Positions 2,605-37,273 of a stretch of DNA of 58,188 bases are shown here, piece after piece; positions within the stretch are counted from its first letter, which is position 1; the number at the start of each line of letters is the position of its first letter. The stretch spans positions 1-58,188 of the forward strand of contig PLTT01000015.1 in assembly GCA_003164595.1 (NCBI GenBank). Direction: 5' to 3'. This DNA is from Candidatus Saccharimonadota bacterium (GTDB lineage: Bacteria > Patescibacteriota > Saccharimonadia > Saccharimonadales > UBA4665). The translations under genes and the position numbers were made by a program. The notes under the pieces are model-generated. The model did no database searches, had not been told where the DNA came from, and saw only the letters and a program-made list of their open reading frames with translations.

Positions 2605-4287
2605 CTATTGCTTCTTAACTTTCATGGCAACATTTAAGCCACGTAAAGTTTTAGTAAAACCACGTATGCCATTTTTATACGCCATATACCTGGGTGACCA
2701 GTCTGGTTCGTACTTAGACTTGAAACGGCGCAGCCCAGAGAAAGAATAGAGTCTGTCACCGTTAGAGTAGACAAAACTTAGTGCTGAATCGATCGTCTTG
2801 TGATCTGGCTCATCTGCGGTCAGACCGCTCAAAGGGCATAGTCCCATATTAAGTCGAACAAAACCATTTTCATGAAGCTTTTTAATAAAGTTAAGTAGTA
2901 GAAAATCGTTCATATTGCCGGGGCTATCACTACTGCTACGTAGCAAATCATAATTTGCCTCAAAGCTGTCTAATGGTGGTATTTGGTTAATAAACGACTG
3001 GATTGTACCGGCTGCATCGCGGGCTATCATGATATTGCATAGCTGCATGTATTCCGTACTGAAATAACCCATCATGTAACCTCTTTCTTCTCTGCCGGGA
3101 AGTTTAAGCCAGTCATCGGAGATCTTCCTTAGTTGATTGATAACGGCCTCGTTATGTGGTGGTTGCAATAACTCAGTGGTGTAATCTAGTTTAGTAAACT
3201 TCGTATTAATGTTCCGGAAGTATTTATTGTTAGCCACGTCATTCAAATATTTATTAATGTCTAGAATTGCTTCTTCGCCAATCTTTTGCAGGCTAAGCCC
3301 ATATTTCTCATATAAATCCCGGTACCGATTCTCAATGTGGATAAATGCAGGCAGCCAATCATTGATTCGACACTGTTGGGTAAAGTTTCCAAGCAGTTGG
3401 TCGAATTCGTTATTGTCTCCGATGGGGTCGCTAACAACTAAAGCAACTCCTCTGTGAACGGTATAGGCCAAAGCAGCGCGCCTAGATTTTGTAAAATAAT
3501 ATGATTTATCTTGAGGCCAGACTTTAAAGAAATCTTCGCTGGATTCAGCATAATGGTCAAGCAGTCCCGATATGGCCAGACGACTAATACTCTGATCGCT
3601 AAAACGGGCTCGCAAAGGCTGGAAAACAGAAATCAAAATATAGATTAGAGCGGCAATTGATATAGTTGACAAGGAATCCATGAATATCTTGGCTCGAAGC
3701 GAATAGGCCACTGGCGGTTTGGTGGTTAGCCCGAATTGGTCAATCGTATAATGAATAGCCCGGGAAAAGGTAATCTCTTGGTGAAAATCGTGCAGATCCA
3801 TAAGCATAAAACCAGCCACGCCGTAGACCAAAGTTATGACAACGATAGTTAGAATTATTGGTATGGTCTGACTGAAGCCTTGAATATCACTTTTTACGGT
3901 AAATTCGTCTTTATAGTAAGTAAGTCCAAATATTGCCACTAACGGTAAGACAATATCTCTAATCAATATTTCGGCCGATAGTCCGTGGGGATGAGTCTGA
4001 CTAAATATCATAAACAAATTAATCAGTAAGGCCACGCCATAGACGAATATGGCTATGACTAGGGCATTGCTTTTGCGCCTAGCAAGCAGCGAGCTAAGGT
4101 ATATCAGCGTTAAGCCGATAACCATATCAACGTTGATTGATGAACTGCTAAGACGGTAGATATGTTCTATATGCAGATGGATAAAATGGAGCAGCGGGTC
4201 AACGATATAAGCCACGCCGTTGATGGCGATAGATAGTATCACTAGATTCAGAACAATTTTGGAATGACGTGCATTCTTTTCCCGCAT
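2605..4287 (-). CDS. MprF-like phosphatidylglycerol lysyltransferase (DUF2156)
   Basis: Probably transfers an amino acid from aminoacyl-tRNA to phosphatidylglycerol, lowering the negative charge of the envelope. The 560 residues have about six N-terminal transmembrane helices (to about residue 225). A cytosolic DUF2156/LPG-synthase C-terminal domain follows, with ALAYTVHRGVALVVSDPIG, a YMMGYFS segment and a C-terminal NLFNFK-like region (SFSGLRRFKSKYEP). Full MprF has 14 helices including a flippase half. Here that half is missing, and a separate flippase-like protein occurs at 35156-36160. It is transcribed against the ribosomal genes and converges on rplA. The amino acid transferred cannot be read from the sequence. 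Confidence 0.82.
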   Translation of the reverse strand: MREKNARHSKIVLNLVILSIAINGVAYIVDPLLHFIHLHIEHIYRLSSSSINVDMVIGLTLIYLSSLLARRKSNALVIAIFVYGVALLINLFMIFSQTHPHGLSAEILIRDIVLPLVAIFGLTYYKDEFTVKSDIQGFSQTIPIILTIVVITLVYGVAGFMLMDLHDFHQEITFSRAIHYTIDQFGLTTKPPVAYSLRAKIFMDSLSTISIAALIYILISVFQPLRARFSDQSISRLAISGLLDHYAESSEDFFKVWPQDKSYYFTKSRRAALAYTVHRGVALVVSDPIGDNNEFDQLLGNFTQQCRINDWLPAFIHIENRYRDLYEKYGLSLQKIGEEAILDINKYLNDVANNKYFRNINTKFTKLDYTTELLQPPHNEAVINQLRKISDDWLKLPGREERGYMMGYFSTEYMQLCNIMIARDAAGTIQSFINQIPPLDSFEANYDLLRSSSDSPGNMNDFLLLNFIKKLHENGFVRLNMGLCPLSGLTADEPDHKTIDSALSFVYSNGDRLYSFSGLRRFKSKYEPDWSPRYMAYKNGIRGFTKTLRGLNVAMKVKKQ

Positions 4288-4406: not shown

Positions 4407-5120
4407 ATGGCCGTATACAGTAACATACAGATTCGAAAAGCAATTGAAGAGGAACACATTATATGCGTGCCTTTTAACCCCAAGCATGTTGCACATGCCA
4501 GCTTGGACGTAACTCTTGGTTATTATTACTACCGGATTGAGCCGAGCAACGAGCGGGTAATATACAACCCATTTGACCGTGAAGACGTTGAGAGATATTT
4601 TGACGGTCCCTACAAAGCTCAAACCCACAAAGAATACTGTGACCAAAACGGCTTTAAGCTAGCTGTTGGTATTCCTGAAGATCATCCGGTGATCGCTATT
4701 AAACCTGGCGAGCGCATACTGGCTCATACTCATGAATTTTTCGGTATTAAACCTCCTGGAGCCTATGATCTTAGGGCTAGGTCTAGTTGGGCTAGAAATG
4801 GCGTAGCTGTTTGTTTTGATGCCGGCTGGGTTGACCCAGGCTACATCAATCGTCTGACTTTGGAAATTTATAACCTTAATTCCCGCGAACTAGTTCTTCT
4901 GCCAGTAGGTGAGCGAATTGCTCAAGCTGTATTTCATGAGACTGGCGAAGTTGAAGGCAATTACGGCATGGGCCGCGATGAAGGATTTAGTGGCAAATAT
5001 TTAACCAGTACTGATCTTGAATCAACCATCAAATCATGGTCACCGAGTTGGATGTTACCTCAAGCATACCGCGACAAACGCAGCCTGCCCGTAAAAATAA
5101 GTGGCATGATGTATGACTAA
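4407..5120 (+). CDS. dcd: dCTP deaminase family protein
   Basis: Deaminates dCTP to dUTP, the first step toward dTMP. Bifunctional family members also hydrolyse dUTP to dUMP. The 237 residues carry the trimeric dUTPase-fold signatures: ARSSWAR (about 124-130), DAGWVDPGY (138-146), the catalytic-Glu segment LTLEIYN (E153) and PVGERIAQ. It is longer than E. coli Dcd (193) by an N-terminal insert and a C-terminal tail. The 8-base overlap with the TMK-ThyX gene couples two successive steps of dTTP synthesis. Whether it is monofunctional or bifunctional cannot be decided by eye. Confidence 0.9.
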   Translation: MAVYSNIQIRKAIEEEHIICVPFNPKHVAHASLDVTLGYYYYRIEPSNERVIYNPFDREDVERYFDGPYKAQTHKEYCDQNGFKLAVGIPEDHPVIAIKPGERILAHTHEFFGIKPPGAYDLRARSSWARNGVAVCFDAGWVDPGYINRLTLEIYNLNSRELVLLPVGERIAQAVFHETGEVEGNYGMGRDEGFSGKYLTSTDLESTIKSWSPSWMLPQAYRDKRSLPVKISGMMYD

Positions 5121-7443
5121 GGGTAAATATATTGTTATTGAGGGGCCCGAGGGCGTCGGTAAGACTACTCAGGCGCAATTAATAGCTGATGGGCTTCGAG
5201 CTGCCGGTCTGCCGGTCAAACTGATGAGGGAACCCGACAGTCAGAACGATCTTACAGCTCGGGCAATTAGGCACATTACCCAAGATCCTCGTTATCCGAT
5301 GAACACCAAGACTGAGGTGCTACTCTACAATGCTGCACGCAGTCAGTCGCTGGAACTGATCAGAGAAAGTATTAACACCGGCATCTGCTGTGTAGTTGAT
5401 AGAAATTATTTAACGACTTTGGCGATTCAATACTATGGCCGCGGTGATATCAAAGATTATGACAAGATAAATCAGATTATTGATTTTGCAGTTGGCGATA
5501 TGGAACCGGATTTGACTATCATTATGGACGCCGAGACCTCAACTCTTATGGAGCGACTTAAAGATAGGTTCCAAGGCGACCGATTTGATAATCTTCAACA
5601 AAGTTTTCTGGAGAGAGTAAGAGCTGGATACCTTTGGGAAGCCAAACAACGGGATTTACCGGTAATTTACGCCACTGGTACCAAGGAAGAAGTTTTTAAG
5701 GAAATTTGGAAGCATGTAGCCAACACCCTCGCTAACCGCGTGGTGGTGGCCGAATCGGCTCCGGCCCAATCATTGGCTACTATTCTGGCTGAAAAGTCGG
5801 AAGTTATGAAGCCCCTAGATCAGGATAATAAACTGGCCGTCCCGGCCAACGCTGAAGACAAAGTATTCCTTAAGAAAAAGGAAGACGGTAATTATGAGAT
5901 AACCAAAGACGGCAAAGAATATTTAACAAACGTTATTACCAATACTACTGGCAATGTTTATGCCTTTACCGGTGAACTTAGCCCGACGACCATCGCTGCC
6001 GCTATGGCTCGCCTTTCCCGCAGGGGAGATGACATGCGAATTACTCTACTAGATGAGTTTGCTAACCAACTTGGCAAGGATCAGAAACTGCTTAGCCGAG
6101 TTATAACAGCCTACGGCGATGACTCCGTTCAGCAACTAGTAGGACAACATTTGGTAGTTGAAAATGCCTCCAACCTGCTGACTAAGAAGTTGGAGTGGGG
6201 AAGATTAGCCGCCTACCTCGAGCAATCCACTCGCTATATTTATTATGATAAAAAAGACATTAACGGCAATTATCGCTACTTTGTTCCGAAAAATTTTAAA
6301 CCGGAAGTCACCAAGCGCTACAAAACGGATATGGATCAGATATTTAAGCTTTATTCCGAACTAGTTCATAACTTGGCAGCTCATCTCGAGCTAAGTTCTA
6401 AAACACCCAAGAAAGAACGTGACGGAGCCTGGAAGGCAGCCATTAGAGCACAGGCTTGTGACGCCGCTCGCCCCGTTTTACCAGTGGCTACAACCTCAAC
6501 CGTCGGTATTTTTGCCTCCGGTCAGGCACTAGAAAGCCTAATTCTTCATCTGCAGAGCGATCCAATTGAAGAAGCTAGAGAAACCGGCAACAGTATTCTG
6601 GAAGAATCACGCAAAGTATTAAGCACCTTCCTGGAAAGATCGGATAAACCAGACCGAGGTGGGGCAATTGTTGCCTATAGGGCTTCCAAAGAAGCTGCCA
6701 TAAGAGACATAACCCATAAATTGCTACCCGCACATCACTCATCCGACCAAGAAGCCGTGACATTAAGTGAATATTGGCCCCACAATGAGTTAGATATTGT
6801 CGCCGATATGCTATATGAGAATGCCACTCTATCTCTAAGTGAGATAAAGACAGAAGTTTCCAAGTGGCCATATCAACAAAAGGTTGATGTTATCAATGTC
6901 TACATGGGTGAGCGACTTAATCGCCGACACCGGCCGGGAAGAGCTTTAGAAAAGATCCATTATTCCTGGGATGTAGTGTGTGACTATGGGATATTCCGTG
7001 ACCTGCAGAGACATCGCATGGTTGATGATTTGCAATGGCAACAATTAACACCGCGTTATGGTTACGAAACGCCCGATCTAGTCGACGAAGCTGGTTGTAC
7101 CGACATATTCGAAGAATGTTTTAATATAAGTCTTGGTTTATACAGTTATTTACAAGACAAGAAGCATGGGTTGGAGGCTCAGTATGCTACGCTCCTTGGT
7201 CATAAAATGCGTTGGAAGATAACCTTTAATGCCAGGGAAGCATTCCACTTCATTGAACTACGTACTGCTCCCCAGGGGCATCCGGGTTACCGTAAATTAG
7301 TCCAGCAGATGTATGAACTATTATGCGAAGTCCATCCGCTGCTTGGTGAGGCTATGAAGTTTGTTAATAAAGACGAAGATCCAGAGCTAAGTCGCTTGGC
7401 CGCTGAACGCTATACCCAATTTAAACTAAAAAGTATTAAGTAA
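5113..7443 (+). CDS. thymidylate kinase fused to tandem ThyX-like domains
   Basis: A 776-residue fusion for dTMP synthesis and phosphorylation. Residues 1-205 are a dTMP kinase: P-loop GPEGVGKT at 11-18, substrate motif DRN at 96-98 and a lid-like DRFQGDRF at 151-158. A low-complexity linker runs to about 275. Two FAD-dependent thymidylate synthase (ThyX) repeats follow. The first contains GRLAAYLEQSTRY (363-375), matching the end of the ThyX motif. The second contains RHR (633-635) and PRYG (647-650), plus ELRTAPQGHPGYRK (715-728) near the C-terminus. Each repeat keeps a different part of RHRxxSxxxxSxRY. The start overlaps dcd by 8 bases. The kinase call is firm; activity of the ThyX pair is inferred. 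Confidence 0.88.
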   Translation: MTKGKYIVIEGPEGVGKTTQAQLIADGLRAAGLPVKLMREPDSQNDLTARAIRHITQDPRYPMNTKTEVLLYNAARSQSLELIRESINTGICCVVDRNYLTTLAIQYYGRGDIKDYDKINQIIDFAVGDMEPDLTIIMDAETSTLMERLKDRFQGDRFDNLQQSFLERVRAGYLWEAKQRDLPVIYATGTKEEVFKEIWKHVANTLANRVVVAESAPAQSLATILAEKSEVMKPLDQDNKLAVPANAEDKVFLKKKEDGNYEITKDGKEYLTNVITNTTGNVYAFTGELSPTTIAAAMARLSRRGDDMRITLLDEFANQLGKDQKLLSRVITAYGDDSVQQLVGQHLVVENASNLLTKKLEWGRLAAYLEQSTRYIYYDKKDINGNYRYFVPKNFKPEVTKRYKTDMDQIFKLYSELVHNLAAHLELSSKTPKKERDGAWKAAIRAQACDAARPVLPVATTSTVGIFASGQALESLILHLQSDPIEEARETGNSILEESRKVLSTFLERSDKPDRGGAIVAYRASKEAAIRDITHKLLPAHHSSDQEAVTLSEYWPHNELDIVADMLYENATLSLSEIKTEVSKWPYQQKVDVINVYMGERLNRRHRPGRALEKIHYSWDVVCDYGIFRDLQRHRMVDDLQWQQLTPRYGYETPDLVDEAGCTDIFEECFNISLGLYSYLQDKKHGLEAQYATLLGHKMRWKITFNAREAFHFIELRTAPQGHPGYRKLVQQMYELLCEVHPLLGEAMKFVNKDEDPELSRLAAERYTQFKLKSIK

Positions 7444-29261: not shown

Positions 29262-29520
29262 CATGTGTCCTCTATAATATATGTATATTATACCATACTC
29301 CGACAATAAAGCTAGATTCATTAAACGACATCGACTAATAATATTACAGTATCGGCCATGAAAGAACATGAGTTAAGAGCTGATGGTAAGAGGCTAATAC
29401 CCGAATAGTGCGATAAATGTGTAGTCGGCATAAAGACAACCTAAATAAAATAGCGCAATTATTTTAAATGTTTATACTAAAATAAAGACAGTAGATAGAT
29501 ATTTGCTAAAGGAGCAACAA

Positions 29521-30129
29521 GTGCCCATTGATTCGATAAATACCATCAATTACACCAAACGTCTCGATAGTGCGATTCGTATAGCTGCTTGGGCTCACGA
29601 ACAACAAAAACAACATCGCAAGGGCGGTGATATCCCCTTTATAATCCATCCGTTTTCGGTGATGCTTATCGCCTCCAGCGTTACCAACGACGAGGATGTC
29701 CTTATAGCCTGCTTATTTCATGATATTTTAGAGGACGTTGACAGCAAAATATATAACGAACAAAAAATGCAAAACGAATTTGGCAGTAGGGTCGTTGCAA
29801 TCGTCAAAGATGTAACCAACGATCTAGAACTTAAAGACTGGTATGAACGTAACAGGGCATATCTGTTTCATCTAGAGCATCAAGCCTCTGATGAATCGGT
29901 TATCGTAAGTGCTTCGGATAAGATTCAGAACTTATTATCTGTTTTAATAGACTATGAAACACACGGAAACGAGCTATGGCAGCTATTTACAACTAAAAGC
30001 AGCAAAGATCAGCTATGGTGGTATCAGGCAGTCCTGGACGTTATACGAAGGCGCAATGGGCCAAAACCGCTCATCGATAAGCTCGCCAATGAAGTCGAAG
30101 CTCTAAAACAAATTATAAATATCAATTAA
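29521..30129 (+). CDS. HD-domain protein (SpoT/RelA hydrolase-like)
   Basis: The 202-residue protein has the HD phosphohydrolase pattern of the (p)ppGpp hydrolase half of RSH enzymes: AAWAHEQQKQHRKGGDIPFIIHPFSV (about 19-44), the metal-binding LFHDILEDV (about 65-73), and a later ASDKIQNLLSVLIDY. No synthetase or TGS domain is present, so it would be a small alarmone hydrolase or a related HD enzyme. GTG 29521 is chosen because AAAGGAG (29508-29514) lies 6 bases upstream; a TTG at 29503 is rejected. Confidence 0.8.
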   Translation: MPIDSINTINYTKRLDSAIRIAAWAHEQQKQHRKGGDIPFIIHPFSVMLIASSVTNDEDVLIACLFHDILEDVDSKIYNEQKMQNEFGSRVVAIVKDVTNDLELKDWYERNRAYLFHLEHQASDESVIVSASDKIQNLLSVLIDYETHGNELWQLFTTKSSKDQLWWYQAVLDVIRRRNGPKPLIDKLANEVEALKQIININ

Positions 30130-32361: not shown

Positions 32362-32367
32362 TAAAAT
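32362..32367 (+). promoter_or_regulatory. -10 box with leaderless geometry for acpS
   Basis: TAAAAT ends 7 bases before ATG 32375. Because it contains part of an earlier in-frame ATG (32366), it also argues for the later start. Confidence 0.5.
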
Positions 32368-32374
32368 GGTAGGT

Positions 32375-32689
32375 ATGATTGGCGTGGACATGGTCTATAT
32401 CCCTGAATTCGCTCTGCAAGCTGAACTGGGTGGCGATACTCTTCTAAACAAGACCTTTAACCCAGAAGAGCTAGCTAACCGGGGAATTAATCACCTTGCT
32501 GGGCTATGGGCCGCCAAAGAAGCTGTCTATAAAGCAGCCGAAAAGTCGCCCAAGACTCTTAAAGACATCATTATCTCCCATGATAACCTAGGCAAACCGT
32601 CCGCCAGAATCGCTAAACAATCATTTGATATCTCCATTTCACACCACGGCGATTACGCTATTGCTGTAGCCCTGAGGTTATCAAAATGA
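32375..32689 (+). CDS. acpS: holo-[acyl-carrier-protein] synthase
   Basis: Transfers 4'-phosphopantetheine from CoA to a carrier-protein serine. The 104 residues start MIGVDMVYIPEF, with the metal-binding Asp in the usual AcpS N-terminal position. They contain HLAGLWAAKEAVYKAAE (about 42-58), the signature (W/F)xxKEAxxKA, and end with ISISHHGDYAIAVALRL. ATG 32375 is preferred to 32366 (see the promoter). It overlaps the next gene by 4 bases. The acyl-carrier domain in that gene is its obvious substrate, since no separate acpP is seen nearby. Confidence 0.92.
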   Translation: MIGVDMVYIPEFALQAELGGDTLLNKTFNPEELANRGINHLAGLWAAKEAVYKAAEKSPKTLKDIIISHDNLGKPSARIAKQSFDISISHHGDYAIAVALRLSK

Positions 32690-35154
32690 AATATAAAGAC
32701 TTTGGCAAGTATGTAGCTAGTTTTAATAAATTTCCAGACCGACTAGCAATGACAACTCGGCCCTATCTAAAAATTGAGCGGCTAACCTATAAACAGTTGC
32801 AAACTCGGGCATATCAGACAGCTCGTTACTTATTGGATAACGGGGTAGTGAAGGGCGATAGAGTTATGGTCGCTGCCATTAACTCACCGCAGTGGATTGA
32901 GCTAATGCTCGGTTGCCAACTAATTGGAGCCATCCTAGTTAGCGTTGACGTCACCAACTCGACTACAATCATCCTGCGCTACCAAAAACAAACTACGCCC
33001 AAACTAATATTCAAAAACTCTAGTTTGCATACCGAGATGGATAAACTATCTGGAGTGATATCTCTCGATGATCTTGATAGCTATATAGATAAGTATCCAG
33101 CTACATCGCCCATAATAAAACTTCAGGGGGGTCTTAGTGCCGTTATAGTGTTTACCTCCGGCACTACCGCCGATCCCAAGGGCGTGGTTTTAACCCAAGA
33201 GAATATCTTAACTAATATTGTAGGTATCCAGGATAGAATTGATGTCGACCCAAACTGGCGAGTATTATCGGTACTGCCGCTGTCCCATATGTATGAATTA
33301 ACTGGAGTTCTGACACTTATGTCAAGGGGCGTTAGTATCTTCAATATTAGTCATGTGACACCCGCCAATATCGCTAAAGCCATGGTGGATTATCAGATCA
33401 CCATGATACTGGGCATCCCCCAGCTTCTGAGTTTAGTTCTTGAACAAATCAATCAAACGGCTAGGGAAGAAGGCAAAACAAACCTTCTGGCGGTTGCTTC
33501 AAAAGCTGCTGCCGTTATACCTTTTTCTCTAAGGCGATATCTATTCCATAGCGTCCACTCGCGCCTTGGCGGACACCTTAGGATAGTGGTAACCGGCGGA
33601 GCACCAATACCAATTGATGTCGCCCGAGCTTGGGAGAATATGGGTGTTAAGACGGTACAGGGATATGGTCTAACTGAAACCTCACCACTCATAAGCGTTA
33701 ACAGCCTAGATGAACGGCAACTTGATTCTCCAGGACGCCCTATAGACAATGTCCAGGTGCGAATAGCCGGTAGTGGAGAAATTCAAGTTAAAGGCGATAG
33801 TGTTTTTAGAGGCTATTGGCAAAATGATGCAGCCACCAAAGAGTCATTCACCAAGAATGGTTGGTTTAAAACCGGTGATGTTGGACGCATCAAAAATGGC
33901 TGGCTGTACATCAGAGGGAGGATCAAATTTATAATTGTTAGAAGTAGCGGACTGAAGGTTTTCCCAGAAGACATTGAATCGGTCGCTGAGGGTAACAAAG
34001 CATTTAGCGATCTATGTATTGTCGGACTTGTCGGTGAACAAGGCGAAAGCGTACTAGCGGTAATCACTTCAGACAAATCAGATAGAACAATCGAAAAAGC
34101 GATATCAACTATCAACGGCACGCTTGAGTCCTTCCAACATATTGATGAGTGGCGGCGCTGGCGCGATAAAGACTTTCCTAGAACTAGATTGGGTAAAGTC
34201 GACCGAAAACAAGTTGAGAATTGGGCTAATAACACTGTCATACTAATGCCCAGCAAAGAGCCGGACGTCGCAGTCAAGGAAGATCAACTTACCCAAATCA
34301 TCAGGTTAATCTCAGGTCACCCGAAGTTACAAATCAGAGCTTCTGATCACCTCGCCGATCTTGGCCTAGATTCACTGAGGCGCCTAACCCTAGTATCACT
34401 CATCGAAACCCGGCTGGGGATTACCATCGCTGAAGAAAATATAAATCAGGAAACGACCATAGCGACACTACGAAAACTTCTAAACAAGGGCAGTCACGTC
34501 GAAGCTATCGATAAACGCCCAAAATGGACGTATTACAAGTGGGTTAGACTTATTGGAAACGCAGTAAGGGAAGTTGTAATACGAGGGTTACTGAGAATCT
34601 GGGTCAAACTTAGGGTTGAGGGAAGAAATAATCTAGATAATCTAGATACTCCGGCAATATTCATCTTCAACCACACCGATGATTTTGATGCGCCGGTTAT
34701 ATATAATTCATTGCCTCATTATATTCGCAAGAGACTGGCTGTCGCTTCAGCTAGTGATGTCTTGGATGATCACAAATTCCTAGCCTTCATTGACCGTCTG
34801 TTTTACGCCGGATTTAATCTAAATCGTTTCGAACCTTATATGCCAAGTCTGATGTATACCAGTGAACTAATAGACAAGGGGTGGAATATAGTCCTATCAC
34901 CAGAAGGTCGTCTCAGCCCATCGGGCAGACTACTACCATTTAAGTTAGGAGTCGGCCTACTAGCGGTTAATCTAGGAGTACCAGTTGTTCCGCTCAAAAC
35001 AATTGGACTAACTGGAACAGTGCCGCTCCATTCTAAATGGCCAAAGAAACGCAGTAAGGTTACAGTGCGCATCGGTAAACCTATTGTTTTTGATGCAAAG
35101 TCTGACTACACTCATGCGACAATTGAACTGCAGCATATCATGCAAGACCTATAA
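32686..35154 (+). CDS. acyl-ACP ligase / ACP / PlsC acyltransferase fusion
   Basis: An 822-residue three-part protein. Residues 1-520 are an AMP-forming acyl ligase with TSGTTADPKG (157-166), a QGYGLTETSP core motif, TGDVG and a late lysine in RTRLGKVDRKQ. Residues about 530-605 are a carrier domain with GLDSL and pantetheine-accepting Ser563. Residues about 640-822 are a PlsC-type acyltransferase with the HX4D motif (H663-D668) and SPEGRLS. It could activate a scavenged fatty acid, hold it on its own ACP and pass it to a glycerol or lysophosphatidate acceptor. This resembles a soluble-looking Aas with a built-in ACP. ATGA overlap with acpS. Confidence 0.88.
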   Translation: MKYKDFGKYVASFNKFPDRLAMTTRPYLKIERLTYKQLQTRAYQTARYLLDNGVVKGDRVMVAAINSPQWIELMLGCQLIGAILVSVDVTNSTTIILRYQKQTTPKLIFKNSSLHTEMDKLSGVISLDDLDSYIDKYPATSPIIKLQGGLSAVIVFTSGTTADPKGVVLTQENILTNIVGIQDRIDVDPNWRVLSVLPLSHMYELTGVLTLMSRGVSIFNISHVTPANIAKAMVDYQITMILGIPQLLSLVLEQINQTAREEGKTNLLAVASKAAAVIPFSLRRYLFHSVHSRLGGHLRIVVTGGAPIPIDVARAWENMGVKTVQGYGLTETSPLISVNSLDERQLDSPGRPIDNVQVRIAGSGEIQVKGDSVFRGYWQNDAATKESFTKNGWFKTGDVGRIKNGWLYIRGRIKFIIVRSSGLKVFPEDIESVAEGNKAFSDLCIVGLVGEQGESVLAVITSDKSDRTIEKAISTINGTLESFQHIDEWRRWRDKDFPRTRLGKVDRKQVENWANNTVILMPSKEPDVAVKEDQLTQIIRLISGHPKLQIRASDHLADLGLDSLRRLTLVSLIETRLGITIAEENINQETTIATLRKLLNKGSHVEAIDKRPKWTYYKWVRLIGNAVREVVIRGLLRIWVKLRVEGRNNLDNLDTPAIFIFNHTDDFDAPVIYNSLPHYIRKRLAVASASDVLDDHKFLAFIDRLFYAGFNLNRFEPYMPSLMYTSELIDKGWNIVLSPEGRLSPSGRLLPFKLGVGLLAVNLGVPVVPLKTIGLTGTVPLHSKWPKKRSKVTVRIGKPIVFDAKSDYTHATIELQHIMQDL

Positions 35155-35155
35155 T

Positions 35156-36160
35156 ATGGCAAAAAAAACTAGCAAGACCAAATTAAGTTTTAAAAATATT
35201 TTTGCATTACTTGGAATCATTGGGCTAGCTATTGTAGTTATCCTCGACCGGCATGATTTTTCGCAGTTTTGGCATTTGTTAGGCAGCCTAAGATACTACA
35301 TCATGGTGATAGTGGTGTTTATCCAGCTGGCTAGTTACTGGGTAAATGGTCTGTATTACCGTTCAATCCTAAGAATATTTAACTATGATGTTGGCGTAGC
35401 GCGGCTATTTGAAGGCGCCCTTGCAACCAATTTCGTTAACTACGTGGTTCCGTCAGTTGGCTTGGCCGGTGCGGGCTACTTGTCTCAAGTTCTATCGCCA
35501 GAAGTTCCAAGGGGGGAAAGCGTTTTAACCCAACTGATGCGCTACGCACTGAGTGCTCTAGCGGTACTGATCATGTTGCCGGTTGGTTTTATAATTATCT
35601 ACCTGACTGGTTATTCCGGTCACGCTATCGTCCGCGTAACTCTATATTCGGCAGTTGGCATAATAGTTTTGGCATTTGCTCTTGTTGCCCTGGTACAGCA
35701 CGAACAATTAGCCAGGAGAGTTGTCAAGTGGCTGGTCGGTGCCATTAAAAGGCTGAGGAAATCATTCCATTCCGGTAACAATATTGAACATTTTGTAGAT
35801 GAATTCTACGTCGGATGGAACTCTATGCTTTCTCAAAAGAAACAGATGTGGGTACCATTTGGCTATTCGATTGTTTACATCATAATCGAGATCTTCACCT
35901 TTTATATGGCGTTCTTGGCCTTCGGCCGCCTAGAGAATCTAGGTATTGTTATTATGGCTTACCTATTCGCCAATATTGCCAGTATATTCGGCGGCGTTTT
36001 CTTCTCAACCGGTACATTTGAAGTAGGCATGGCCGGGACACTGGTTGCTCTTGGGACGCCGCTAGTTATTGCCGTTTCAGTTACCGTCGTCTATAGAGTT
36101 CTGAATCTGATAGTCGGCCTTCCGCCGGGCTATATTTACTACCGAAAGTATCTACCGTAG
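35156..36160 (+). CDS. flippase-like membrane protein (LPG_synthase_TM/UPF0104)
   Basis: The 334 residues have about eight transmembrane helices and the family features of the MprF flippase half: GALATNFVNYVVPSVGLAGAGYLSQVL (about 84-110), a long basic loop (ARRVVKWLVGAIKRLRK), and FANIASIFGGVFFSTGTFEVGMAGTLVALG (about 272-301). It may move a lipid or lipid-linked molecule across the membrane. ATG 35156 begins one base after the stop of the acyl-ligase fusion. A longer frame to 35084 lies within that gene and is rejected. Products of the two genes probably act in sequence. Confidence 0.82.
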   Translation: MAKKTSKTKLSFKNIFALLGIIGLAIVVILDRHDFSQFWHLLGSLRYYIMVIVVFIQLASYWVNGLYYRSILRIFNYDVGVARLFEGALATNFVNYVVPSVGLAGAGYLSQVLSPEVPRGESVLTQLMRYALSALAVLIMLPVGFIIIYLTGYSGHAIVRVTLYSAVGIIVLAFALVALVQHEQLARRVVKWLVGAIKRLRKSFHSGNNIEHFVDEFYVGWNSMLSQKKQMWVPFGYSIVYIIIEIFTFYMAFLAFGRLENLGIVIMAYLFANIASIFGGVFFSTGTFEVGMAGTLVALGTPLVIAVSVTVVYRVLNLIVGLPPGYIYYRKYLP

Positions 36161-36217: not shown

Positions 36218-37273
36218 ATGAATAGCGAGTTAGTCCCCCTTAGGATTCAGGAAAGAAAGGCAACACTGGGTCATTTATTTGAAGCCGGTCGTCTAGCACT
36301 GGAACTATCTAACGAAACAACACCAAGAATTGATGAGCAGTTCCTATCAATAGCGGGCCGAGTTGCCAGGCAAGATGGAGCCTTGTTTAGCGTTATGCAA
36401 CCAGACTTATTGATTGGCGATGCTAGACCTGATTCAATAAGACACAACCGAACTTTGCTACAACCAAATCCTCTGTCAACCGAGGAAGTAAACAGCACCC
36501 TGGGGCTAATTGATCTAATGCTAGGTGATCAAGTACCGGAACTTCAGTCGATATTTACTAAGGCGGCCTTGGACGTCCAAATGTTTGAGAAATTAAAGCC
36601 TACCCCCGAAGCTCCGGGAACAAAGTTTTTGGTCGTTAGCAACCACCTGCAACTGGCTGACCAGGGTTTTACGATGGGGTTATTTCATAAAGTAGCCAAT
36701 GAACAGGGAATTGATCGATTGGAAAACCATGTAACGGCTGTAATTGGCCGCGCAATCGGTTATTTTCAATTTGGGGACATGAATGTCGTAGACGATATCC
36801 TCAGAAAAGTAGGTAGTGTGCTCAAAACTTTCCCAGCTGGTGGCAGTGAAGCATTATCGGACGAAGAACAGGCGCTCCTAATATATCGAGGTATCTGTAA
36901 TCATCATACCAAACAAGCATTTGGGGAATTGATTAACTCTAGGGATGGAAGAATCATTTTTATGGCTCCTAGTGGCGAACAAGATAAGTTTGATGACAAG
37001 CGGCATGTTGTCACAATGTCAGCGTTCGGTAAAGCCACTAATCAGATGATGATAGACGCCTGCAAAGAAGGAGCGCTGGTTGTTCCGGCATTTGTCGATT
37101 ATGGCAACGATGTAAGTATTGTTAAGTTCCTAGATCCCCGTCAGGTAAGTTCGATCGAGGAATGTCATGAAATAGGTAAAGACATCGCTATGACCGGTAC
37201 TAGTCTCAGGGGCGCGGCGAGTTCAACGTACCCCGATATTAAACGGTTCAACATCCCTATCAGGTATAGATAG
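36218..37273 (+). CDS. PlsC/PlsB-like acyltransferase-fold protein
   Basis: The 351 residues carry LVVSNHLQLADQGF (about 140-153), which fits the NHX4D catalytic motif of glycerolipid acyltransferases. About 110 residues later IIFMAPSGEQDKFD fits the position of the phosphate-binding (F/P)PEGT motif, in altered form. The spacing resembles glycerol-3-phosphate acyltransferases of the soluble plastid type more than PlsC. No membrane helices are evident. With the neighbouring ligase/ACP/PlsC fusion it could complete phosphatidate synthesis. The acyltransferase call rests on two motifs. Confidence 0.68.
   Translation: MNSELVPLRIQERKATLGHLFEAGRLALELSNETTPRIDEQFLSIAGRVARQDGALFSVMQPDLLIGDARPDSIRHNRTLLQPNPLSTEEVNSTLGLIDLMLGDQVPELQSIFTKAALDVQMFEKLKPTPEAPGTKFLVVSNHLQLADQGFTMGLFHKVANEQGIDRLENHVTAVIGRAIGYFQFGDMNVVDDILRKVGSVLKTFPAGGSEALSDEEQALLIYRGICNHHTKQAFGELINSRDGRIIFMAPSGEQDKFDDKRHVVTMSAFGKATNQMMIDACKEGALVVPAFVDYGNDVSIVKFLDPRQVSSIEECHEIGKDIAMTGTSLRGAASSTYPDIKRFNIPIRYR

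Follow-up and report, generated by a model that had tools for sequence, protein, structure and literature searches.

The 58,188-nt contig PLTT01000015.1 of the Candidatus Saccharimonadota assembly GCA_003164595.1 (the window) encodes an AcpS-type 4′-phosphopantetheinyl transferase directly followed by one protein in which an acyl-AMP ligase, an acyl carrier protein (ACP) and a PlsC-type acyltransferase are fused. Comparison with other genomes of the candidate phyla radiation (CPR) provides good support for these two genes as the real unit, a two-gene cassette. We consider it probable, with moderate confidence, that the fusion is a salvage enzyme similar to Escherichia coli Aas, with a built-in and dedicated ACP, that re-acylates scavenged lysolipids; we infer every catalytic step of this reading from sequence. 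The assembly, of which the window is contig 9, measures 868 kb and is 95% complete; its size, gene losses and relatives point to a CPR bacterium of the Saccharibacteria kind, tiny and probably host-dependent.

The AcpS gene (32375–32689, forward strand, 104 aa) is the sole PF01648 match in the genome. The open reading frame (ORF) list gives two candidate ATGs for it, at 32366 and 32375, of which the second is the likely start because relatives start at its equivalent. The fusion gene (32686–35154, forward strand, 822 aa) overlaps the AcpS stop by 4 bases, and a flippase-like membrane protein (35156–36160, forward strand) has its ATG after a 1-base gap from the fusion stop. The ORF coordinates and Pfam domains agree with this layout as the original prediction had described it. 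To judge from the spacing, the three genes are likely one operon in which the flippase gene is co-transcribed here; a promoter and terminator scan of the locus yielded no excess over shuffled sequence.

Pfam places three domains in the one 822-aa chain: AMP-binding (PF00501, 2.9e-66) in the ANL-type ligase at residues 1–515 (32686–34230), PP-binding (PF00550, 2.1e-9) in the ACP at about residues 528–600 (34267–34485), and Acyltransferase (PF01553, 1.7e-15) in the PlsC-type domain at residues 612–822 (34519–35154), which belongs to its superfamily at 57.4 bits against a gathering cut-off of 23. Among seven homologues at 31–53% identity, the ligase motifs TSGTT, GYG, TGD and GR are invariant or nearly so, as is Lys504. 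The D562-S563 pair, whose serine is that of the ACP DSL motif, is invariant, and so are the acyltransferase motifs NHx4D (His663, Asp668) and PEG (Glu740); K504, S563, H663, D668 and E740 are unchanged in all seven. Long-chain fatty acid-CoA ligases give the top score for the ligase domain, whose closest solved structure is FadD13 (3r44). An AlphaFold model of the whole fusion (pLDDT 75.7, pTM 0.70) resembles acyl-CoA ligases, an acyl-ACP synthetase and ligase-carrier didomains in structure matching.

The AcpS protein matches Pfam ACPS at 1.3e-13 (51.4 bits, cut-off 25) and lies above the TIGR00556 cut-off (61.9 versus 45.35 bits) and below that of the acpS equivalog TIGR00516 (30.1 versus 59.8 bits). 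The catalytic D, E and K columns and the SxSHxxDY motif are kept in the alignment of all seven CPR copies.

Full-length homologues of the fusion were found in four of 393 genomes of the class, at 48–53% identity apart from the window protein itself, and, at 32–35%, in three further genomes from other families of the phylum. The AcpS and fusion pair is therefore present in seven searched genomes from at least five families, and because it recurs in six genomes besides this one at 31–53% identity, the pairing is far beyond chance. An AcpS ORF of about 100–114 aa lies directly upstream of the fusion on the same strand in all seven; the two genes overlap by 4 bases in five of them and are 1–4 bases apart in the other two. 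When 26 genomes were searched with PF01648, AcpS was confined to the seven fusion carriers, always at the pair locus, and was absent from the other 19 (Fisher p 1.5e-6, for genomes that are neither phylogenetically independent nor randomly chosen). The invariant residues, the constant adjacency and the restriction of AcpS to carriers together argue that AcpS and the ligase-ACP-PlsC protein are a real, selected unit, and the view that these two neighbours belong together, already put forward from the sequence of the locus, is upheld. Trees did not show tight co-evolution of the two proteins, AcpS being too short and three branches very long.

The fused ACP is the only ACP-family match in this genome; among 40 genomes searched, any ACP was found in just two, the source genome and one relative. 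The original prediction had named fab genes and a free acpP as what to look for in the full genome. The ketosynthase family PF00109 had no match in any of the seven carriers, while all 14 control genomes were positive, and six of the seven carriers have no free ACP. Without a PF00109 match, ACP-based fatty-acid synthesis would be impossible with the genes detected (FabD, FabH and FabZ were not searched). The remaining carrier, G638, has a free ACP gene (L049:5576-5833, forward strand) between nusB-like and rnc-like genes, with no detectable ketosynthase in that genome.

The acyl acceptor has to be deduced from the acyltransferase domain and from the rest of the lipid gene content. When isolated, the PlsC domain has as its best NCBIfam matches the acyl-[ACP]-phospholipid acyltransferases PRK06814 and PRK08633 (1.5e-10), followed by the 1-acyl-glycerol-3-phosphate acyltransferase TIGR00530 (1.6e-8), whose curated cut-off it misses (34.4 versus 102.95 bits). 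A profile of the seven PlsC domains scores 48.9 bits against the transferase part of E. coli Aas (Aas-T) and 29.5 against E. coli PlsC, and the motif PEGR.S..G.L can be set beside PEGRITTTGSL of E. coli Aas; by these measures the PlsC part resembles Aas more than PlsC. The domain is also the only PF01553 match in the genome, where neither a CDP-alcohol phosphotransferase (PF01066) nor CdsA (PF01148) was matched. Both families are absent from five of the seven carriers; PF01066 is absent from 4 and PF01148 from 6 of the 19 compared genomes (p 0.03 and 0.09 versus carriers), a contrast that is only suggestive because the two groups were not phylogenetically matched. One PlsC-family domain, with neither CdsA nor CDP-alcohol phosphotransferase detected, favours a route that salvages or re-acylates lysolipids over one that builds from glycerol-3-phosphate. 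Since no head-group addition to phosphatidate is visible, the simplest assumption is an acceptor with the head group already in place, for example a lysophospholipid. The cassette had been put forward as a self-contained module for lipid assembly; the assembly part of that proposal is weakened by the same gene content.

In E. coli, LplT moves lysophospholipids inward and Aas re-acylates them using acyl-ACP, a chemistry of the same two steps with the ACP in trans (PMC11416262), and in CPR-enriched samples lysolipids were unusually abundant, for which the authors proposed uptake from other bacteria (PMC7242380). In the mechanism we propose, AcpS would take the phosphopantetheine arm from CoA and attach it to Ser563 in the neighbouring ACP domain, as its family and the tight linkage suggest. 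The ligase domain, judging by its conserved motifs, would then adenylate an imported fatty acid with ATP and load it onto the arm in cis, and the PlsC domain would hand the acyl group on to a glycerolipid. The likeliest acceptor would be a lysophospholipid or other lysolipid from the host or neighbouring cells, given the missing CdsA and CDP-alcohol phosphotransferase and the lack of a second PlsC-family acyltransferase. The flippase-like neighbour may supply lipid or relocate it across the membrane here, as an accessory. The built-in ACP and the AcpS supplied with it would be explained by the lack of a free ACP and of a fatty-acid synthase in the cell.

Several points weigh against lysolipid salvage. 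Carriers G018 and G146 have CdsA-like and CDP-alcohol transferase matches, and the role of the cassette may differ among carriers; besides the fusion, G636 has two PlsC-family genes and G146 has one. The acceptor is deduced from absences in a genome that is 95% complete, with PlsX, PlsY, PlsB and GpsA not searched. The lysolipids reported from CPR samples had betaine head groups (PMC7242380), not an obvious substrate for an Aas-like enzyme. The domain order here is ligase-ACP-PlsC and that of Aas is PlsC-ligase; the membrane neighbour belongs to PF03706 and not to the major facilitator superfamily (MFS) like LplT; and the fusion falls far short of every NCBIfam Aas cut-off (151 bits versus 1349 for PRK06814).

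The alternative that survives best, which we nonetheless regard as unlikely, is de novo phosphatidate assembly from scavenged fatty acids, an extension of the picture in the original prediction. Lysophosphatidate would be made from glycerol-3-phosphate by an unseen PlsY or by the product of the gene that follows the flippase gene by 57 bases on the same strand (36218–37273), the fused PlsC domain would make phosphatidate from it, and the flippase would distribute the product. The PlsC domain is compatible with 1-acyl-glycerol-3-phosphate acyltransferase activity too (the TIGR00530 match, below cut-off), and two carriers have the CdsA-like and CDP-alcohol transferase matches just mentioned. This genome has neither of these in detectable form, nor any other PlsC-family enzyme.

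The product of the 36218 gene, which the original prediction had not listed, is tentatively a putative soluble acyltransferase-like protein. No family was matched in profile scans. Its acyltransferase-like motifs SNHLQLAD (an HX4D motif) and MAPSGEQDK (APSG-type) persist in three homologues, the most distant of which reduces them to NH....D and ASG..DK. Foldseek gave weak matches (E 3e-3 to 4e-2) to PatA (probability 0.54–0.84) and to the squash glycerol-3-phosphate acyltransferase (GPAT) 1k30 (probability 0.91) for a model of pLDDT 48, and a profile search of the PDB found no GPAT match. The protein may be an acyltransferase, possibly GPAT-like, as the modelled fold hints, and if it is, de novo assembly would be revived for this genome. 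The family was found in four of 295 genomes searched, this one and three others, none of the three being a fusion carrier; in two of these (G104 and G144) an HD-domain gene akin to window gene 29503–30129 comes after the homologue. As its homologues occur in genomes that have no fusion, in two cases with the HD-domain neighbour, we rejected the 36218 gene as part of a conserved module.

Next in rank, and rather improbable, is a specialised acylation in which the acceptor is not a phospholipid but a glycolipid, lipoprotein, envelope sugar or amino lipid, as for acyltransferases of the PatA or amino-lipid type. PF01553 spans many acceptors, homologues weakly match the GlsA and OlsF models, and the sporadic spread (four among 393 genomes of the class, five among 380 of the phylum) resembles that of an accessory function; against this, the neighbourhoods of the pair share no conserved glycosyltransferase or amino-lipid synthase, and the Aas-type acyl-[ACP]-phospholipid acyltransferases score above GlsA and OlsF. 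That the ligase chiefly makes acyl-CoA or detoxifies free fatty acids, with the ACP and PlsC parts as relics, is very improbable: its best score against long-chain fatty acid-CoA ligases is as this would have it, but the ACP serine and the PlsC catalytic residues are invariant over 31–53% identity and AcpS is kept only where the fusion is.

The flippase-like protein, with about seven hydrophobic spans by simple hydropathy count, matches LPG_synthase_TM (PF03706, 4.1e-31) and TIGR00374. Its gene adjoins the pair in none of the other six CPR loci; in G018 only, a PF03706 gene lies about 1.1 kb upstream of AcpS. As a conserved cassette member it is thus rejected, being adjacent solely in this genome, and the proposal that made it a core part of the module is not supported. 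The protein also matches MprF positions 5–182, at 42 bits against a bifunc_MprF cut-off of 600. Elsewhere in the window, the gene at 2605–4287 (reverse strand) matches the C-terminal part of MprF (304 bits, positions 325–827 of 841) without the N-terminal flippase part; this phosphatidylglycerol lysyltransferase-like domain stands in a genome without detectable phosphatidylglycerol synthesis. Since one gene carries the N-terminal and the other the C-terminal part, the two may be a split MprF acting on borrowed lipid.

A further lipid-related neighbour is found at the Uhrbacteria locus, where a diacylglycerol-kinase-like gene (L053:8531-9520, reverse strand) is convergent to the cassette. Apart from lipid genes, one ORF of the window (5113–7443, forward strand) joins a thymidylate kinase domain to two ThyX (Thy1)-matching stretches and is adjoined by a dCTP deaminase-like gene.

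The same three domains in the same order occur at full length and 25–33% identity in genomes assigned to Bacteroidales, Acidobacteria, Myxococcota, Verrucomicrobia, Ignavibacteria and Omnitrophota, so the ligase-ACP-PlsC architecture is not new, and we found no description of it in the literature. Bacteria of these phyla normally have a fatty-acid synthase and free ACP; the one bin checked here, from Verrucomicrobiia, does have ketosynthases. The AcpS profile built here found no AcpS beside these fusions. Long matches also occur in Fusobacterium and Ilyobacter records, some labelled ‘AMP-binding protein’, which we take as sequence matches only. This wider family came from an alignment-based search; a single-sequence search of named genome contigs gave nothing.

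Two closer relatives, at 54–56% identity, lie on actinobacterial-looking, Acidimicrobiia-like contigs of 62–66% GC named Acidimicrobiaceae (L050) and Saccharibacteria (L051). The two contigs are collinear over about 14 kb, their LepA-like proteins are 93% identical, and their assemblies of 2.0–2.7 Mb have ketosynthases; the Saccharibacteria name of L051 is doubtful on account of this collinearity, GC content, assembly size and ketosynthase content. In the tree, both fusions group with the window protein (100/99) inside a Saccharibacteria-like clade (100/100). In the AcpS beside the L050 fusion the motif SxSHxxDY has become SLSRTAEY, and L051 has no AcpS at that place. Only in these two does an MFS gene follow the fusion, with no LplT match among the families scanned. 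On the simplest reading, a CPR lineage would have passed the cassette to an actinobacterium with its own AcpS, after which the redundant AcpS decayed; binning errors or transfer in the opposite direction are possible alternatives.

More broadly, we put forward tentatively, as an idea somewhat short of an even chance, that in several CPR lineages the whole ACP system of the cell has shrunk to one domain, armed by a private AcpS, which has no fatty-acid synthase to serve and whose sole use is to re-acylate stolen lipids. The cassette would move between episymbionts and Actinobacteria, the phylum of known hosts, with AcpS decaying where the cell has its own. This bears on how CPR bacteria come by their membrane lipids: at least seven such genomes without a detectable ketosynthase carry an ACP-dependent enzyme together with the enzyme that would arm it, in contrast to a published survey of CPR genomes in which no ACP-producing or ACP-requiring enzymes were found (PMC7242380). 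The cassette offers a directly testable salvage step, through loading of Ser563 and the lysolipid acceptor, and predicts that these lineages import free fatty acids and lysolipids, not intact phospholipids alone. It would be a natural minimal acyl-carrier system, with one ACP and one job.

Among known systems, E. coli Aas (PRK08043; 2-acylglycerophosphoethanolamine acyltransferase/acyl-ACP synthetase) likewise joins a ligase and a PlsC-type transferase in one chain, uses an acyl group borne on ACP and can be adjoined by a lipid-translocating membrane protein. It differs in that here the ACP is fused, a dedicated AcpS is in the same operon and the cell has no detectable fatty-acid synthase or free ACP. 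The MFS-PlsC-ligase fusions (PRK06814 and PRK08633) are the top NCBIfam match of the isolated PlsC domain, which reaches only about 40 bits against curated cut-offs of 1221–1349; we know of no ACP domain or AcpS pairing in them. Known AcpS proteins (PF01648) have the fold family, the catalytic residues and the place beside the ACP substrate in common with the copy here, which is shortened (about 104 aa) and under the acpS equivalog cut-off. The cassette is thus predicted to work like Aas, yet it falls outside the Aas families as curated; what is new is that the fusion is coupled to a private AcpS and supplies the only ACP of a cell without a fatty-acid synthase.

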